NCBI GenBank assembly: GCA_016871755.1
Contig: VHCJ01000023.1
Coordinates: 1-47,732 of the forward strand
Origin: Verrucomicrobiota bacterium
GTDB taxonomy: Bacteria; Verrucomicrobiota; Verrucomicrobiia; Opitutales; Opitutaceae
DNA: 47,732 nt
Direction of reading: 5' to 3'
A program made the translations under genes and the position numbers. This document shows positions 21,332 to 30,314 of the stretch, in pieces. Below the pieces are notes generated by a model, which worked only from the letters and a program-made list of their open reading frames with translations, was not told the origin of the DNA and ran no database searches. How positions within the stretch are numbered: position 1 is the stretch's first letter; each line of letters starts with the position of its first letter.

Positions 21332-22101
21332 CTCCGCTCGAGCCCAACACGCAGATCAAGTACCCGGAACTCGTGCGGGAGTTCCACGACGCGCTCCGCG
21401 ACCGGCTCTTCCCCCGCCTGCCGGCCTGCGAAGGCCGCACCGCCCTGCTCGCCCGGCTCCTCGGCACCGGCATCAGCGAAGCCTTGTACCTGCTGGACCA
21501 ACTGCACGCCAGCCTCGATCAACCCGGCGATGTGGTCGAGTTTGGGGTGGCCCAAGGCGCGACCTCCGCGCTCATCGCCAACGAAATCCGCGCGACCCCG
21601 AAGACCCTCTGGCTCTACGACACCTTCGCCGGCCTCCCCCGCCCCTCGCCGAAGGACCAGTTGAAGGACGACATCTTCGGACTCGGCTCCATCGAACGCT
21701 ATGAGGGCGAAATGCGCTGCGAGCCCGCGGAGGTCCAGACCCGCCTCGCCGCGATCGGTTTTCCGGAATCCCGCGTGCGCCTGGAGCCCGGACTCGTGGA
21801 GGAGACGCTGCGCCCCGGCCGCGGGCCGGCCGCGGTGAGCTTCGCGTACATCGACTTCGACTTCTACGCCCCGATCAAGCACGCGCTCGAATACCTCGAC
21901 ACCCACCTCGCGGAGGGCGGGCGGATCGTCGTCGACGACTACGACTTCTTCTCCACGGGCGCAAAGACGGCGGTCGATGAATTCATAGCGGAGCACCCGG
22001 GGCGCTACCGGCTCGAGCTTCCCCGCCCCTTCGCCGGACACTTCGGCATGATCTCCCGCGTGCCCCGCGGCTGGCGCCGCTGGTTCGGCGCAGCACGCTA
22101 G
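21328..22101 (+). CDS. TylF/MycF-like O-methyltransferase
   Basis: A 257-residue methyltransferase of the macrocin O-methyltransferase family. Motifs are DVVEFGVAQGATSALIANEI (SAM binding), WLYDTFAGLPRPSPKD, FAYIDFDFYAPIKHALEYL and a terminal GGRIVVDDYDF. TylF and related enzymes methylate sugar hydroxyls, which fits a glycan cluster. The stop codon overlaps that of the convergent DUF6807 gene (CTAG at 22098-22101), and no terminator is seen. Confidence 0.85.
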   Translation: MTPLEPNTQIKYPELVREFHDALRDRLFPRLPACEGRTALLARLLGTGISEALYLLDQLHASLDQPGDVVEFGVAQGATSALIANEIRATPKTLWLYDTFAGLPRPSPKDQLKDDIFGLGSIERYEGEMRCEPAEVQTRLAAIGFPESRVRLEPGLVEETLRPGRGPAAVSFAYIDFDFYAPIKHALEYLDTHLAEGGRIVVDDYDFFSTGAKTAVDEFIAEHPGRYRLELPRPFAGHFGMISRVPRGWRRWFGAAR

Positions 22102-23234
22102 GGCTGGCCGCGTCCGGCAAACTGACGGTACAACCACGCCACCTCGCCGGCGGCGGTATCGCCGAGATGGATATAGACGCCGTAGCGGAACGTGATGCTC
22201 TGCCCGGCCGGGACCGTGAGGTCGCCGATGCGCGGCTGGTCCTTGAGTCCCTCGAAATCATGCCGCCCGAACGGATTGGCGGCGAAGAGTCCGTAGTCGC
22301 GCACGTGCCACCACGTCGGGTGCCGCGGATTCGTGGGCGCGTCGAAGAACGCGACCCCGTGAATGATGCCCTCGCGCGGGGCAAAGTAGTCGACCCACTC
22401 CGCACGCTGGCCCCAGATCCCGGCGCCGGAGGCACCGGTGCTGTTCACCATCTGACCGACCCCCGGTTCGTCGCGGCCCTGGGCCCGGTGCGGCAACGTC
22501 ATCCAACGGGCGAGCCGCAACGCAAACGTTCCCTCCTTCGTGTCGCCCAGCACCAGCGGCGCATCCGCCGGGGCCTCCAGCGTGATCGTGACGTCCCACT
22601 GGCTGCCGTTGGGCAACGGGGTGATGCGCACGGAAAGCCGATCGGTGCACACCTGCCTCCCGTCGGGCGCGAGCCAGCGGCGGCGGTCCTCGATCACCGC
22701 CACCCCCGCCGCCTCGTCGCTGCCGGGGTCAACCCGGGCCGTCGGCTGGCCCGTCGAAACGATGCGCCCGGTCGTTCCGGCCTTCTCCGCCCAGAAGTCG
22801 ACGCCGTTCACCGAACCATGGGCGAACCAGAGTCCGCGGTGATGCGGGTGATCTCGTGCCTCGCCCGGGACATCGGCCATCGGATAGCTGCGGCTGAGTT
22901 GCGTACCGTCGACGGCGAGGATCGGATGGAAGTAGGTCTTGGGCGCAGCGTCGCCGAAGAAATAGGTCGTGAACAGCCGCCCATCGAGTGTGACCGCCAC
23001 CGTCCCGGCACCGCGCTCAATCCCGACTGTCGCGCGCCACGGCACCCGGTCACGCGTGCCGCTGGAAGCCGCCGGACTTACCCCAGGTGCGATGCCCGCC
23101 CCCGCGGAAACTCCCGCCGCGGTCGGTGCCGCCGCCGGGGCCGCGGTCAGCCCGCTGAAGGATCCAGAGAGAACGGCCGCGCCGCACGCGACCCAGACCA
23201 CGACACGCCGCACCCAGACACGGAGAGGAGACAT
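22098..23234 (-). CDS. DUF6807 (PmoA-like) secreted protein
   Basis: A 378-residue exported protein. The start at 23234 (MSPLRVWVRR) was chosen because a twin-Arg/hydrophobic signal segment follows (VVVWVACGAAVLSGSFSGL). The mature part matches the family often annotated PmoA or DUF6807 in Verrucomicrobia, Planctomycetes and Bacteroidetes: HPILAVDGTQLSRSYPM, DHPHHRGLWFAHG, VNGVDFWAE and HPTWWHVRDYGLFAANPFG. The fold is beta-rich, and the function is unproved despite the name. A link to sugar breakdown is inferred for the family only. Confidence 0.82.
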   Translation of the reverse strand: MSPLRVWVRRVVVWVACGAAVLSGSFSGLTAAPAAAPTAAGVSAGAGIAPGVSPAASSGTRDRVPWRATVGIERGAGTVAVTLDGRLFTTYFFGDAAPKTYFHPILAVDGTQLSRSYPMADVPGEARDHPHHRGLWFAHGSVNGVDFWAEKAGTTGRIVSTGQPTARVDPGSDEAAGVAVIEDRRRWLAPDGRQVCTDRLSVRITPLPNGSQWDVTITLEAPADAPLVLGDTKEGTFALRLARWMTLPHRAQGRDEPGVGQMVNSTGASGAGIWGQRAEWVDYFAPREGIIHGVAFFDAPTNPRHPTWWHVRDYGLFAANPFGRHDFEGLKDQPRIGDLTVPAGQSITFRYGVYIHLGDTAAGEVAWLYRQFAGRGQP

Positions 23235-23283
23235 GCGGGCAGCAAAGCAGAACCCGGGCGGATGCCAAGTCACCGTCACGCTC

Positions 23284-24678
23284 CTACTGCAGGCGCAACG
23301 GCAGCCCGCGCCAGCGACGGTTCAGGTCCTCGAGCTTCGGACCCGTCGGTTGGTCCGCCGCGATGGGTCCGAGAGCGATGGTTTGGGACAGGGCGAACGA
23401 GTCCAGCACGACGCAGTAGTCGGCGTTGACCATGATCCCGAGCAATTCGCCGCTCTTGCCCAGCACGAGGTCGCCGCGGGACGGCGTGAACTCCCCGAGC
23501 ACCCGGCGCACGAGGCGGTTGTCCATCCGCACATGATGCGTGCTGCCGGGGTCCAGCTTGAACGGCACCTCGCCGTAGCCGGCGCCCCCGTTGGCGATGA
23601 GGACCGCCTCGGGGAAACGGAACGGATCGACGGCGGTCCGGTAGACCTTCGCGCCCAGCGCCTGCACCTGCTCCGGCGTGACCGGCAGCACGACGATCCG
23701 CGGATCGAGGGAAAGGAAGCCCAGCTGCGTGGCACCCAGACGGCGGTCGGCGCGGCTGAACTCGGCGGTGAGCCGCTCCCAGTCGACGGCTGACTCGCGC
23801 AGGGCGAGCGGCGTGTCGTCGATGTGGAGGACCGCGTAGGTGGCCTGACCATCCGTGACGAGCAGCGTGCGGGAATCGAGCGTGCGGGTGACCGGCCCGA
23901 GGAACGTCCGCCGGAACGCGGTGAACTGCGTCTGCACGCGGTTCGCGAGGAATTCGTTGAACAGCGTGTTCGCGTTGACCGGGCGGTTTTCGCGGATCTC
24001 GCGGCTGAGCTCGGTGGACTTCTCCGCGAGCTGGCCCACGCCCTGGGCGAGCTCGCTGGTGGCCTGCTGAACCTTGAGGCGCTCCTCGCGCTCGGCGGCG
24101 ACCTGCGAGCGCAGCGTCTCGGATGTTTCGCGCAGCAATTGTTTCTCCTGCTCGGCGACCCGCACCGCGACGGAGAGACCCTCAATGCGCTCGCGCGCCT
24201 GCGCCTGATCGCGCTCAAGGCCGGCAACCCGGCGCTGCTGCTCCTCCGCCTCGCGGCGCTTCTCGTCGAGTTCGCGCTGCACGGCGGCGAGCCGATCCTT
24301 GGAAACGGCCGCCTCCTCGGCCGCGGCGGCGGCGCGGCGGGCGACCTCCTCGGCGGATCGACGGGTTGCCTCCAAGTCGGTGCCGAGGCGCGACCGCTCC
24401 GCTTCGACCTGGCTCAGGCTCGCTTCGCGCGCGCGGACCTGCTCCTCCGCGGAGGTCAGGGTGCGGGCGAGTTGCTCGCGGGACGCGCGCTCGTCGGCCA
24501 GGGACGCCTTCATCGCCGCCAGCAGGTCGGTTTCGCGCGAGGCCGCTCCCGCCCCCGCGCTCGCGGCCGGGGCGGCGACCGGAGCGGGCGCGGGCGGCTG
24601 GGCCTGCTCCCAGCGCGTGAGCGCCAGCAGGTTGAGCAGGAGGAAGTCGCAGAGAATGAGGAGAAGGGTGCGGTTCAT
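23284..24678 (-). CDS. Single-span membrane protein with long coiled coil and protease-like C-domain
   Basis: An unrecognised 464-residue protein. One N-terminal membrane segment, with an Asp inside (D11 in MNRTLLLILCDFLLLNLL), is followed by a Pro/Ala linker (24-46). A long Ala/Glu/Arg coiled coil (about 50-230) and a globular C-domain (240-464) follow. The C-domain has SRGDLVLGKSGELLGIMVN (400-418), which looks like the GDSGGPL...G region of trypsin-like proteases, though without the exact motif and with no clear His/Asp pair. The short charged helix after a single N-terminal segment with one Asp is also like MotB/TolR/ExbD stator subunits. It follows the polytopic membrane gene by 36 bp and is probably its partner. 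Confidence 0.7.
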   Translation of the reverse strand: MNRTLLLILCDFLLLNLLALTRWEQAQPPAPAPVAAPAASAGAGAASRETDLLAAMKASLADERASREQLARTLTSAEEQVRAREASLSQVEAERSRLGTDLEATRRSAEEVARRAAAAAEEAAVSKDRLAAVQRELDEKRREAEEQQRRVAGLERDQAQARERIEGLSVAVRVAEQEKQLLRETSETLRSQVAAEREERLKVQQATSELAQGVGQLAEKSTELSREIRENRPVNANTLFNEFLANRVQTQFTAFRRTFLGPVTRTLDSRTLLVTDGQATYAVLHIDDTPLALRESAVDWERLTAEFSRADRRLGATQLGFLSLDPRIVVLPVTPEQVQALGAKVYRTAVDPFRFPEAVLIANGGAGYGEVPFKLDPGSTHHVRMDNRLVRRVLGEFTPSRGDLVLGKSGELLGIMVNADYCVVLDSFALSQTIALGPIAADQPTGPKLEDLNRRWRGLPLRLQ

Positions 24679-24714
24679 GGCATGACCACCCGGAGGTGAG
24701 CGAGGGGACGGCCC

Positions 24715-26370
24715 TCAGGACGCCGGCGCCCGTTCGGCGTCCTGGCCAGCGAGAATGAGCTGCCGCTTGAACGGACGGACATGGCGGATCTTGATCAGCG
24801 CCACGCAGACGATGCCGAACAGGTTCGAGGAATAGGCCGCGAGCAGGTTCGGCTGGATGACGCCGAGGACCTGGAGAACCAAGGCGGCGGCCGTGCCGGC
24901 GATGCCGAGGTACAGGCCGCCGTCGAACAGGTTCTCCTCGTTCTCCATCAGGCGCAGCTGCACGAGCGGCGCCAGTCCGGAGCGCGAGATTTCGGCGATC
25001 TTCCGCAGGCAGAGGAAAAACCAGCCTAGTTGCAGGAGCGCGAACAGGCCGATCGAGAGCAGGGTTGAGGTGTCCATGGCGAAAGTGGGCGGGGTCGGGG
25101 TGAGGGACGCGGGGTCAGAGATCGAGCCGAGCACCGGCATCAGCACGCGCAGCGCGAACTCCGAAGGGGGCGCGGCGGCGAGGAGAAACGGCTCGGTCGC
25201 GAGGATCAGCACCACCCCGCTCAGCAGCGCCAGCACCGCCGTCGTCAGGCCATGGCCGGACGCGAGGGTCCCGGACCGAAAGACCAGACCCGCGGCACCG
25301 CGGAGGAGGAGGAAGGCGGCAAGGAAGAAACCGAGCCAGCGGAAGGCGACGGCGGTCGCTGGATGGAGCAGGGCAAACTCCGCCCCCCAGCCGAAGCCGG
25401 AGTCACGGGATCGGTTCACCGGCACCTGCCGTTCGACCAAGACGTCGAGCGCGCCCTGCCCCAGGCGCAGGGCGAGTCCCACGTCGTCGAGTCCAGAGCG
25501 ACCGAAGGTCAGGAGATAGGCCGCGACGTAGTCCGCCGAGCCTGAGAGCAACGCCGCGCTGTAGATGACCGCAAACTCATCCGGCGCCACCCGCGCGAGG
25601 TGCGCGTACTCGCGCAAGGTGCCCAGACCGCTCGTGCGCCGCAGCAGTTCGGTCAGCGAAATCCAATCGAGCCGGGAACCCAGCGACACCAGATCGAGGT
25701 AGGCCGCCTCAAGATCGCCGAGGTCGTTCCGCGCCACGGCGCGCTCCGCCAGACCGCGCAGCTGCCGCTGCAGCGCCGGCGAGAGGTGCTCGCCCTGATA
25801 GAGAAGCGCGGTCATCAGGATGATCGCATCGAGCGGCTGCCCACCGGCGTCACGCGCCGGGGTGAATGAAGCAGTCAGGGTGACGTCGGCGGTGCGCAGC
25901 AGCGCCTGCACCCCCGCCGAGCGCGAATTGGCGAGGTAGGTGCGGACGGCCCGACGGGCCCGCTCCGGGAGCATGACGGTGAACACGGGGGCGCTCCGCG
26001 CAGGTTCCGACAGCGCCACCACCGGCAACAGCGGCTCAAGCATCGGATCCCATCCGCCCCACGGCACGTGCGCCGGCGTGCGCGCCGCCGTGGCGGCGAC
26101 CGCCTCGGCCAGTTGTCCGGCCTGCGGCACCGCGAGCGCCTGCGCCGTCGAGAGGAGGAGCGCCGCCGGACCCAGTTTCTCGCGCTCCAACAGGTCCTCC
26201 GCCCGCTCGGTGAGCGACGGCGTCCCGGCGCCCGCGGCCGCGAGCAGAGTCCGCGGAAGCGCGCCCACGTTCACCGGCAGGAGGGCAGCCAGCGCGAGCA
26301 GCGCCGCCCCCGCAAGCAGCAGGGCCAGCGCTTGATGCGTCGGATTCAAGCCGGGGCGGGAGCGGTCCAT
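24715..26370 (-). CDS. Polytopic membrane protein, unrecognised (possible partner of the coiled-coil protein)
   Basis: An unrecognised 551-residue protein. An N-terminal membrane segment (about 13-32) is followed by a large helical extracytoplasmic or cytoplasmic domain (about 50-335). Five more segments follow (about 342-364, 376-399, 436-455, 484-504, 510-527). The last two contain FDGGLYLGIAGTAAALVLQV and NLLAAYSSNLFGIVCVALIK, faintly like the Gly-rich TM2/TM3 of TolQ/ExbB/MotA channels. The start at 26370 (MDRSRPGLN) was preferred because upstream in-frame residues overlap the divergent def gene. The coupling with the next gene is inferred from 36-bp spacing and strand. Confidence 0.7.
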   Translation of the reverse strand: MDRSRPGLNPTHQALALLLAGAALLALAALLPVNVGALPRTLLAAAGAGTPSLTERAEDLLEREKLGPAALLLSTAQALAVPQAGQLAEAVAATAARTPAHVPWGGWDPMLEPLLPVVALSEPARSAPVFTVMLPERARRAVRTYLANSRSAGVQALLRTADVTLTASFTPARDAGGQPLDAIILMTALLYQGEHLSPALQRQLRGLAERAVARNDLGDLEAAYLDLVSLGSRLDWISLTELLRRTSGLGTLREYAHLARVAPDEFAVIYSAALLSGSADYVAAYLLTFGRSGLDDVGLALRLGQGALDVLVERQVPVNRSRDSGFGWGAEFALLHPATAVAFRWLGFFLAAFLLLRGAAGLVFRSGTLASGHGLTTAVLALLSGVVLILATEPFLLAAAPPSEFALRVLMPVLGSISDPASLTPTPPTFAMDTSTLLSIGLFALLQLGWFFLCLRKIAEISRSGLAPLVQLRLMENEENLFDGGLYLGIAGTAAALVLQVLGVIQPNLLAAYSSNLFGIVCVALIKIRHVRPFKRQLILAGQDAERAPAS

Positions 26371-28664: not shown

Positions 28665-30200
28665 CTAGAGCAGATCCGCCGCCAGCTCGGCGAGCTTCGA
28701 ACGCTCACCCTTGGTCAGCTTCACGTGCGCGTGCAGCGACTGACCCTTCATGCGATTGTGGGCGTAGACGAGTCCGTTGCTGCGGGCATCCACGTAGGGA
28801 TTGTCGATCTGGGCGGGATCCCCGATCAGGACGATTTTTGATCCCTCGCTGATGCGCGTGATGACGGTCTTGACCTCGTGGGGCGTGAGCTGCTGCGCCT
28901 CGTCGAGGATGAAGAAACGCCGCGCGATCGAACGCCCGCGGATGAACGCCAGCGCCTCGATCTCGACGAGGCCGGAGCGCAGCAAGCGCTCGTAGGGCTT
29001 GACCGGCGGGGCGCCCAGGGGAAAGGACTGCGAAGCGTGGGTCGGCTGCGGCGAGGACATCATCGCCATCAACGAGTCCCGTTTGCGCGCCTTCTTGCTG
29101 GAAACCTTCTTGGCTGCGAACTGCGGATCCTTCTGCGGCTTCGACGGGATCAGCACCTCCAGTGCGTCGTGGTAGGGCTGCAGCCACGGCTTCATTTTTT
29201 CCTCGAGCGAGCCCGGCAGGAAACCGAGGTCCTTGCCCAGCGCGATGACCGGCCGCGAGATCGACAGCCCGTCGTAACGCCCGCTTTCGTCGCAGATCTG
29301 CTGCAGCGCGCAGGCGGTGGAGAGCAGCGTCTTGCCCGTGCCCGCCTTGCCGAAGCAGGTGATGAGCGTCACGGAGTCGTCGAGCAGCGCATCCATGAAG
29401 AACTGCTGCTCCAGGTTGCGCGCGCGGATCGGGATGCCGCCCGGCGCCTTCACGTACTCCGGGATCTTGAGGCGCCGGACCAGGCCGTCGCCGCAATACC
29501 GCGCCGGCATCGTCTTGTCCTGCTCCGAGCGCAGCAGCACGTACTCGTTCAAGTAGAGGCTGCGCGCCGCCTCGGCGCCGATGTCGAATTCCCCCTCCGA
29601 GCAGAAACGCTGCAACTCATAGACCGTGAGCGGCACCTCCGTGTAGGACTGCTCGTCCTCGGCCGCCGGCACCTTGTCGTTGAGATAGTCCTCGGACTCG
29701 AGGCCGACCGCGCGCGCCTTGAGTTGGACGTTGACGTCCTTGGTCACGAGAATCGTCGGCGGCGGGTACTGCTCCTGCACGAAGAGCGCGCAGGCGATGA
29801 TGCGATTGTCCTTCTTGGAAAGATCCGGCAGCACCGCGCGCAACCGCAGCATCGCGGGCGTGTCCTGCCGGTTCTCGAGCAGGTAGCGGTTGATGATGAC
29901 GGATAGCGTGCCGCCCGTCGGAAGACGCACACCCTCCAGCATCGCGCGCGAATCCGGCAGCAACTCCTGCAGGATCCGGTGCACGCGCCGCGCGTTGCGC
30001 CCACGCTCCGTGGACTGTTCGCCCTTGATCGCGTCGAGTTCCTCCAACACCTCGACGGGAATCGCGAGGTTGTTGTCCTCGAACTTGAAGATCGACTGCG
30101 GGTCGTGCAGCAGGACGTTCGTGTCGAGGACGAAGGTCTTCACCTTCGTCGAAACCTTGAGCTGGGAGATTTGGGCCGAAGGCCCGCTCAGGTGTGCCAT
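28665..30200 (-). CDS. PIN-PhoH family RNA helicase/ribonuclease-type ATPase
   Basis: A 511-residue PhoH2-type protein. The N-terminal PIN domain (about 20-150) has FVLDTNVLLHDP, VLEELDAIKGEQSTERGRNAR and KKDNRIIACAL. The PhoH ATPase domain has Walker A CFGKAGTGKTLLS, Walker B FFILDEAQQL and IVLIGDPAQID. Such fusions are RNA helicases/RNases. There is a Lys/Ser-rich insertion (KKVSSKKARKRDSLMAMMSS) between the two ATPase halves. The start at 30200 is chosen by reading frame. There is no ribosome-binding site before it because two DnaA-like boxes fill the 5-24 bases upstream, so a later start is possible. Confidence 0.92.
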   Translation of the reverse strand: MAHLSGPSAQISQLKVSTKVKTFVLDTNVLLHDPQSIFKFEDNNLAIPVEVLEELDAIKGEQSTERGRNARRVHRILQELLPDSRAMLEGVRLPTGGTLSVIINRYLLENRQDTPAMLRLRAVLPDLSKKDNRIIACALFVQEQYPPPTILVTKDVNVQLKARAVGLESEDYLNDKVPAAEDEQSYTEVPLTVYELQRFCSEGEFDIGAEAARSLYLNEYVLLRSEQDKTMPARYCGDGLVRRLKIPEYVKAPGGIPIRARNLEQQFFMDALLDDSVTLITCFGKAGTGKTLLSTACALQQICDESGRYDGLSISRPVIALGKDLGFLPGSLEEKMKPWLQPYHDALEVLIPSKPQKDPQFAAKKVSSKKARKRDSLMAMMSSPQPTHASQSFPLGAPPVKPYERLLRSGLVEIEALAFIRGRSIARRFFILDEAQQLTPHEVKTVITRISEGSKIVLIGDPAQIDNPYVDARSNGLVYAHNRMKGQSLHAHVKLTKGERSKLAELAADLL

Positions 30201-30204
30201 CGCG

Positions 30205-30224
30205 TGTGGATAACGTGTGAATAA
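30205..30224 (-). promoter_or_regulatory. Two DnaA-box matches upstream of phoH
   Basis: On the minus strand TTATCCACA (30213-30205, the exact consensus) and TTATTCACA (30224-30216, fits TTWTNCACA) lie as direct repeats 11 bp apart, one helical turn. An AT-rich tract follows at about 30440-30500. They could be part of a DnaA-controlled promoter or of an origin-like unit. Only two boxes are seen, so an origin is not proved. Confidence 0.55.
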
Positions 30225-30314
30225 CCAGCACGACCGATGCCACTTGTCGATCACCGACTTGCGGCGCGCACGATTGTTGCACGGTCCCGGAAGCCCGGAC
30301 CTGCCAAAGAGAAA

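Follow-up and report, generated by a model that had tools for sequence, protein, structure and literature searches.

Genes A and B lie next to each other in a 47,732-nucleotide stretch of DNA from a Verrucomicrobiota bacterium of the family Opitutaceae (the window). They are a co-inherited and unnamed gene pair that appears to encode an unrecognized envelope machine. Gene A comes first, and gene B follows on the same, minus strand after 36 bp. The first-pass annotation, made from the letters of the window, had read A as a six-span membrane protein and B as a protein with one N-terminal span carrying an aspartate (D11). Hydropathy and AlphaFold2 (AF2) models bear out both this topology and the 36-bp spacing. 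We suggest, at about even confidence, that the pair is a divergent, stator-like, ion-driven force transmitter. An ion-driven machine with a protease-like or peptide-binding head had been proposed before; the linkage of the genes, the conservation of D11 and the fold of the head agree with that proposal, but an active S409 enzyme does not survive.

Pfam and NCBIfam put a family name to neither protein. A scan of A against Pfam and NCBIfam gave no match at an E value of ≤10. For B, the matches were confined to the coil or fell far below the cut-off, and no family was named. The results of our literature search, which left most subscription papers outside its reach, contained no title describing a pair like A-B.

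Co-inheritance of A and B

We searched 57 relatives and found B in 44 and A in 43. Judged from the coordinates, A and B sit next to each other on a single strand in 42 of the 43 genomes in which both were found. In a wider sample of 387 genomes from the phylum, a profile of the A core matched 126 and a profile of the B head matched 125. Both proteins were found in 124 genomes, A alone in 2 (G129 and G038), B alone in 1 (G420) and neither in 260; that is, 384 of the 387 have both or neither. A single-protein search did find the B of G038. Each genome with matches had one match per protein, save G120, in which B is split across two contigs. The genome of the window also has a single match of A and a single match of B. 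The pairing noticed in the window thus extends to its relatives, and chance pairing is ruled out by the linkage in relatives together with the both-or-neither pattern. Even if the complex is passive, this is an unnamed co-inherited pair in about one third of the sampled phylum genomes (124/387).

The genes adjoin, and often overlap, in the loci examined. The distance matrices of A and B correlate with r = 0.956 over 56 pairs, a value that shared descent alone could yield and that 0 of 2000 permutations reached. Our scan of named genomes found 80 A loci, mostly Opitutales by title, with B present at 76. Two of the records without B stop at the end of A (L142 and L153), and another has 232 bases remaining (L139). 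In a further locus (L166:7001-8557) two in-frame stops interrupt A, and the genome gave no match of B, apparently through joint decay of A and B or an assembly fault.

The two genes are present but apart in two genomes, about 70 kb from each other in one (G051) and on different contigs in the other (G380). Therefore, the pair may be able to act without gene adjacency. A genome of low completeness (G019) holds two partial sets of the pair. Full-length A proteins with 43-45% identity to the window A also occur in four records titled Proteobacteria, Klebsiella pneumoniae or Akkermansia muciniphila (L200, L201, L203 and L205), and some of these metagenome-assembled genome labels are probably wrong. 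A viral origin was set aside, as the 12 pattern matches in viral contigs include no relative.

The membrane core and stator channels

The AF2 model of A has helices at residues 10-30, 337-363, 373-392, 434-463, 484-501 and 509-546. The large helical part between the first two spans (Table 1) is modeled with a predicted local distance difference test score (pLDDT) of mostly at least 90, and 74-76 at residues 111-130, and is probably periplasmic. Outside the window's order, the similarity to A is mostly limited to its final ~130 residues and is found in proteins of 171-287 aa (A′). The 20 loci that we fetched comprise 17 short A′ and 3 long versions (family f36). In these loci a B-like gene (B′) that keeps D11 comes next, at a spacing of -4 to 27 bp; the B′ proteins measured are 485-677 aa long. 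Because short A′ proteins stand beside a B-like gene with D11 outside the order, the four-span core (residues 371-551 of A) looks like the conserved unit, with spans 1-2 and the helical part as an addition.

We expressed conservation as the mean frequency of the commonest residue in 66 A proteins and 59 B proteins. In A it is 0.90 for span 5 and 0.95 for span 6, 0.69 for span 4, 0.64 for the helical part and 0.47 for the first 36 residues (span 1). In B it is 0.92 for residues 1-24 and 0.62 for both the coil and the head. (Alignment A4 omits the wrong-strand row L045, alignment A5 holds 65 of the 66 locus rows, without L134, and alignment A8 holds 20 of the 21 rows of A7, without L097.) Because the B helix and spans 5-6 of A are the best conserved parts, the helix and the last two spans of A probably pack together. 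A value of 0.92 is more than we would expect of a plain anchor, whose sequence should drift.

D11, whose conservation the first-pass annotation had proposed to check, is invariant. It is present in 59/59 Opitutales-type B proteins and in 21/21 of a phylum-spanning set, 4 of which are Opitutales-type. Among distinct B N termini it is found in 85 of 90 (121 of 126 loci, some fetched twice). Four of the five others (L141, L163, L169 and L212) were picked in the wrong frame, and the true B there has D11; the fifth comes from L166, which has no B. On the side of A, all 17 members of a diverse set have Q447, D483, Y487, G489, A512, Y513, S515 and G519. Position 493 in that set is T in 15 and S in 2, position 516 is T in 13 and N in 4, and position 527 is K or R in 17/17, being K in 66/66 of the larger set. 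Counting from the cytoplasmic helix ends, we infer that Q447, T493 and D11 are about equally deep, near the middle of the membrane.

We suggest that A and B form one inner-membrane complex. Several A subunits would enclose the B helix by spans 5-6, and probably 4, placing D11 near mid-membrane, by analogy with the ExbD, TolR and MotB helices within the ExbB, TolQ and MotA rings. An ion binding at D11, beside a polar layer of Q447, T493, S515 and N516 (position 516 being T in most distant relatives), would cause movement between subunits. Through the periplasmic coiled coil, up to ~27 nm long, this movement or force would be passed outward to the head, and the head, HtrA-like and catalytically dead, would bind an envelope partner. 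An ion drive is suggested because an invariant mid-membrane Asp is combined with a conserved polar layer and with a resemblance of motifs to stator channels. If it is real, another kind would be added to the few known envelope motors, and A′ would be a minimal channel subunit (171-187 aa at its shortest, four spans, almost no cytoplasmic part) for minimal ion-to-motion coupling.

The chief rival to such a motor, which we nevertheless regard as unlikely, is a passive permanent scaffold. D11 would then be structural, for example paired with the basic residue 527, and the coil would display the head with no ion flow or work. The constancy of a basic residue at position 527, which may simply pair with D11, counts in favor of the scaffold and against the motor, as does the lack of a significant match to any motor family. 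However, by residue counting position 527 is near the cytoplasmic end of span 6 and D11 is mid-membrane. The polar layer at Q447, T493, S515 and 516 is also kept, and this exceeds the needs of one ion pair. Entropy along the B helix has no helical periodicity, a result that is uninformative at 5.3 effective sequences.

We compared A with the channel subunits MotA, TolQ and ExbB. The consensus of the A′ core includes DVPLYIGLFGTV and AYSSTLIGI. The motifs G-x2-G-T and A-x3-T-x2-G occur in A′ and also in a consensus built from 16 MotA_ExbB proteins of relatives, in the same order and with equal internal spacing. The weak channel similarity noted in the first-pass annotation is somewhat plainer in distant relatives (YIGLFGTV, AYSSTLIGI), but it still lies below significance. 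A-B also has the adjacent single-span partner with an invariant Asp that marks the stator type. One explanation, compatible with the other readings and in our view just short of an even chance, is that A shares not just the working principle but also the ancestry of the MotA/TolQ/ExbB superfamily, as a highly diverged member.

Several comparisons point toward such descent. In all four hhalign tests of A′ against ExbB the registers were those predicted by homology (probabilities 0.7-3.1 percent); the G-x2-G-T/A-x3-T-x2-G stretches were aligned in one test, and the preceding span was aligned with ExbB span 1 in three. In a decoy comparison ExbB had the highest probability, but the 4 decoy membrane families were too small a set for this to carry weight. 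A hidden Markov model (HMM) of the ExbB core ranked A-like sequences as the top seven non-ExbB open reading frames (ORFs) of 4283 (5 distinct proteins; best E, 0.56). In the reverse search with one A model, ExbB proteins were the two best non-A matches (E, 0.11 and 1.4). The core HMM scored better than local shuffles (p ≤ 0.05) for 16/25 short A′, in a test whose sequences are related and whose counts are not independent. When 16 A′ were scanned against NCBIfam at E ≤ 10, the 20 models matched included tolQ (2/16; best E, 0.066) and exbB2 (2/16; best E, 3.5).

Other results weigh against this descent and against a stator-like channel. Every score is below significance, and the four hhalign probabilities are just 3.1, 0.7, 2.0 and 0.9 percent. 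PF01618 (MotA_ExbB) was unmatched by A at E ≤ 10 and the Pfam cut-off was not reached; for 16 A′ at the same threshold, it was absent from the 25 listed of the 33 matched families. The full-length ExbB HMM ranked a non-A ORF first (E, 0.014), and a combined A model put ExbB only third in the reverse search. None of the long A proteins (0/32) passed the core shuffle test, and the full HMM did so for 5/25 short A′ and 5/32 long A. Other NCBIfam models, some of them unrelated, matched A′ with lower E values (0.0036 to 0.0094). The tolQ match that we examined spans 11 residues, and other members score better with unrelated transporter models.

In fold searches, the 551-aa A monomer had a best Foldseek E of 1.0 and a best VIA Z of 7.5, which falls in the noise range that the tool states for helical models. 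The fold matches listed for the monomer include no stator channel, a result that excludes nothing. Searched by sequence against the PDB, an A′ profile matched one designed protein (E, 0.14). MotA and ExbB have a large cytoplasmic region before their last two spans, where A has a loop of about 20 residues between spans 4 and 5 (464-483), similar in A′; in B, hardly any residues precede the helix. These features argue against a stator channel. Because PF01618 was tested and A did not reach it, we do not claim membership of A in the MotA/TolQ/ExbB family. A plausibly works like stator channels.

The coiled coil and head of protein B

The AF2 model of B has a helix at residues 3-25, further helices at 50-188 and 192-230, and an all-β part at about 248-435. 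Hydropathy gives the N-terminal span holding D11 and a second, weak peak at residues 412-430, inside the β head. At 0.15 nm per residue, the coiled coil would reach ~27 nm as a single straight helix. Beyond residue 230 the pLDDT is mostly ~90 or more, and it is 68-89 at residues 351-400. The head model forms the chymotrypsin-like double barrel of the S1/HtrA proteases. It matches HtrA/Deg proteases in Foldseek (E, 9.9e-6; probability, 1.00). By VIA, it matches an astrovirus protease (2w5e; Z, 12.8; root mean square deviation, 3.6; 153 residues), and HtrA3 and the RsgI9 S1C domain (Z, 12.1). Searched by sequence against the PDB, the B profile matched over the coil, nearly always coiled-coil or helical proteins, and the head profile matched none.

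We placed the catalytic sites on B by eye, from HtrA motifs rather than from a residue-level structural alignment. The His-Asp-Ser triad of S1/HtrA proteases is not conserved in the B proteins (59 Opitutales-type and 21 phylum-wide). S409 belongs to the GKSG stretch that the first-pass annotation took for a trypsin-like GxSG motif (residues 401-417, RGDLVLGKSGELLGIMV). That motif was over-read: position 409 is Ser in 14/59 Opitutales-type and 1/21 phylum-wide proteins, so S409 is not an active-site serine. At position 400, 35/59 have Ser and 20/59 have Lys. The site that we take for the HtrA Asp, residue 329, is V, A, I, L or M, and H285 is His in 52/59 Opitutales-type and 7/21 phylum-wide proteins.

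Because the residues at the presumed catalytic sites are not kept, the head is probably a binding domain. The earlier idea of a protease-like head therefore holds for the fold and probably fails for the enzyme, and we regard the head as a probable pseudo-protease. A membrane-tethered, active HtrA-type protease would account for the HtrA/Deg fold match and for the frequent H285 of the Opitutales-type proteins. However, the residue counts at 409, 400 and 329, and the loss of H285 in most of the phylum-wide set, led us to reject that alternative, which we consider extremely improbable.

Table 1. Features of the A-B pair, with positions in the window
Feature	Position	Strand	Remarks
Gene A	24715..26370	-	551 aa from ATG; six predicted membrane spans
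A residues 40-335	25366..26253	-	All-helical, solenoid-like, between spans 1 and 2; no counterpart in short A′
A residues 371-551	24718..25260	-	Four-span core, equivalent to standalone A′ proteins
A span 5, residues 484-501	24868..24921	-	Carries Y487, G489, G492, T493
A span 6, residues 509-531	24778..24846	-	A512-x2-S515-N516-x2-G519; always-basic K527; best conserved span (0.95)
Gene B	23284..24678	-	464 aa from ATG; one membrane helix with D11, coiled coil, β head
B membrane helix, residues 3-24	24607..24672	-	D11 in its middle
D11 codon	24646..24648	-	Conservation counts in text
B coiled-coil region, residues 50-230	23989..24531	-	AF2 model
B head, residues 232-464	23287..23985	-	Chymotrypsin/HtrA-like fold
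GD-x6-G-x3-G (G402, D403, G410, G414)	23437..23475	-	Head signature phylum-wide

Neighboring genes and known systems

A DUF6807 gene (window 22098-23279; PF14100; E, 2.5e-62) begins 4 bp past the B stop on the same strand. Upstream of the pair are a peptide deformylase gene on the opposite strand and a PhoH/PIN gene (window 28665-30254) in the orientation of the pair; a PhoH-type family is upstream of A in 15 fetched loci. The neighbors of the named loci differ, with a sulfatase at 18 loci, a Na/Ca exchanger at 14 and PhoH upstream at 15, one representative having been scanned per neighbor family.

One family, f32, has a third gene. In all 11 of its fetched loci (L083-L091, L093 and L102) a gene closely after B′ encodes a Pkinase domain (Ser/Thr kinase). 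The protein has a C-terminal FGE-sulfatase domain in 10/11 and a clear membrane span after the kinase in 6/11; because of this span, the FGE-like part would be outside. The 9 fetched loci of other families had no same-strand ORF of >459 aa after B, and no kinase/FGE gene was seen. Four post-B genes scanned in other families encode an aldose epimerase, a protein with a sub-threshold radical SAM match, a DMT_6 protein and one unmatched protein.

The f32 gene is the main support for a membrane signaling relay, in which the head would sense a periplasmic ligand and the pair would signal inward, with the Ser/Thr kinase as the f32 output. However, the 9 loci of other families have no such gene, the window neighbor is DUF6807, and A is nearly without a cytoplasmic domain to signal with. 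We consider the relay improbable. A defence system was also set aside. The PADLOC models of Zorya and other anti-phage systems left A and two A′ unmatched, and B and two B′ had only coiled-coil type matches (best E, 1e-4). The one f32 kinase tested had matches to many defence kinases, which is usual for Ser/Thr kinases.

The f32 module also invites comparison with GldL/GldM, the motor of gliding and type IX secretion. One f32 kinase protein, tested against NCBIfam, matched GldK (TIGR03525; E, 6.6e-10) at 38.9 bits versus a cut-off of 350, which may be generic FGE similarity; a parallel with GldK-GldL-GldM is suggestive only. In GldL/GldM, according to one account, much of the inner subunit is periplasmic, and the sequences are not obviously homologous to MotAB (PMC9389320). 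Two others describe the PorKN ring as a repurposed FGE fold (PMC12421860) and treat ZorAB and GldLM as homologues at a greater distance that are not yet firmly placed (PMC12505986). A-B is similar in that B has a long periplasmic part, A has no obvious MotAB homology, and the f32 neighbor carries an FGE domain. It differs in that the f32 FGE domain is fused to a kinase and is seen in one family only, and the GldK match is far below the cut-off. The 20 NCBIfam models that 16 A′ matched at E ≤ 10 include none of GldL or GldM, and A and B matched no such model either.

We propose tentatively, and a little less firmly than the descent of A from the channel superfamily, that Verrucomicrobiota have, in these pairs, a previously unnamed class of stator-like envelope motors driven by ions. 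Its inner subunit would combine a membrane Asp, a long periplasmic rod and a pseudo-protease head, one family would add a kinase/FGE module, and the class would run parallel to the motors of the Tol, Ton, flagellar and gliding systems while standing apart from them.

The pair shares with TolQ/TolR, ExbB/ExbD and MotA/MotB adjacent genes for a polytopic protein and for a partner that crosses the membrane once, has an invariant Asp at mid-membrane and carries a periplasmic domain. The A core also has the G-x2-G-T and A-x3-T-x2-G motifs in consecutive spans, like TolQ and ExbB. However, A has no significant sequence match to these channels, no fold match was found, its cytoplasmic loop is almost absent, and in the window's order it has an extra helical part; B has a very short N-terminal tail. 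The heads of the known stator inner subunits are of the ExbD/TolR type or OmpA-like, whereas the head of B is HtrA-like. This head shares its fold with HtrA/Deg (S1C) proteases and the RsgI9 S1C domain, but, unlike HtrA/Deg, it has not kept the catalytic residues and is joined to a coiled coil and a membrane helix. TolA and TonB have a periplasmic rod ending in a C-terminal binding domain, and B resembles them in this respect. It differs from them in the fold of its head and in uniting the rod, the membrane-Asp helix and the head in one protein.

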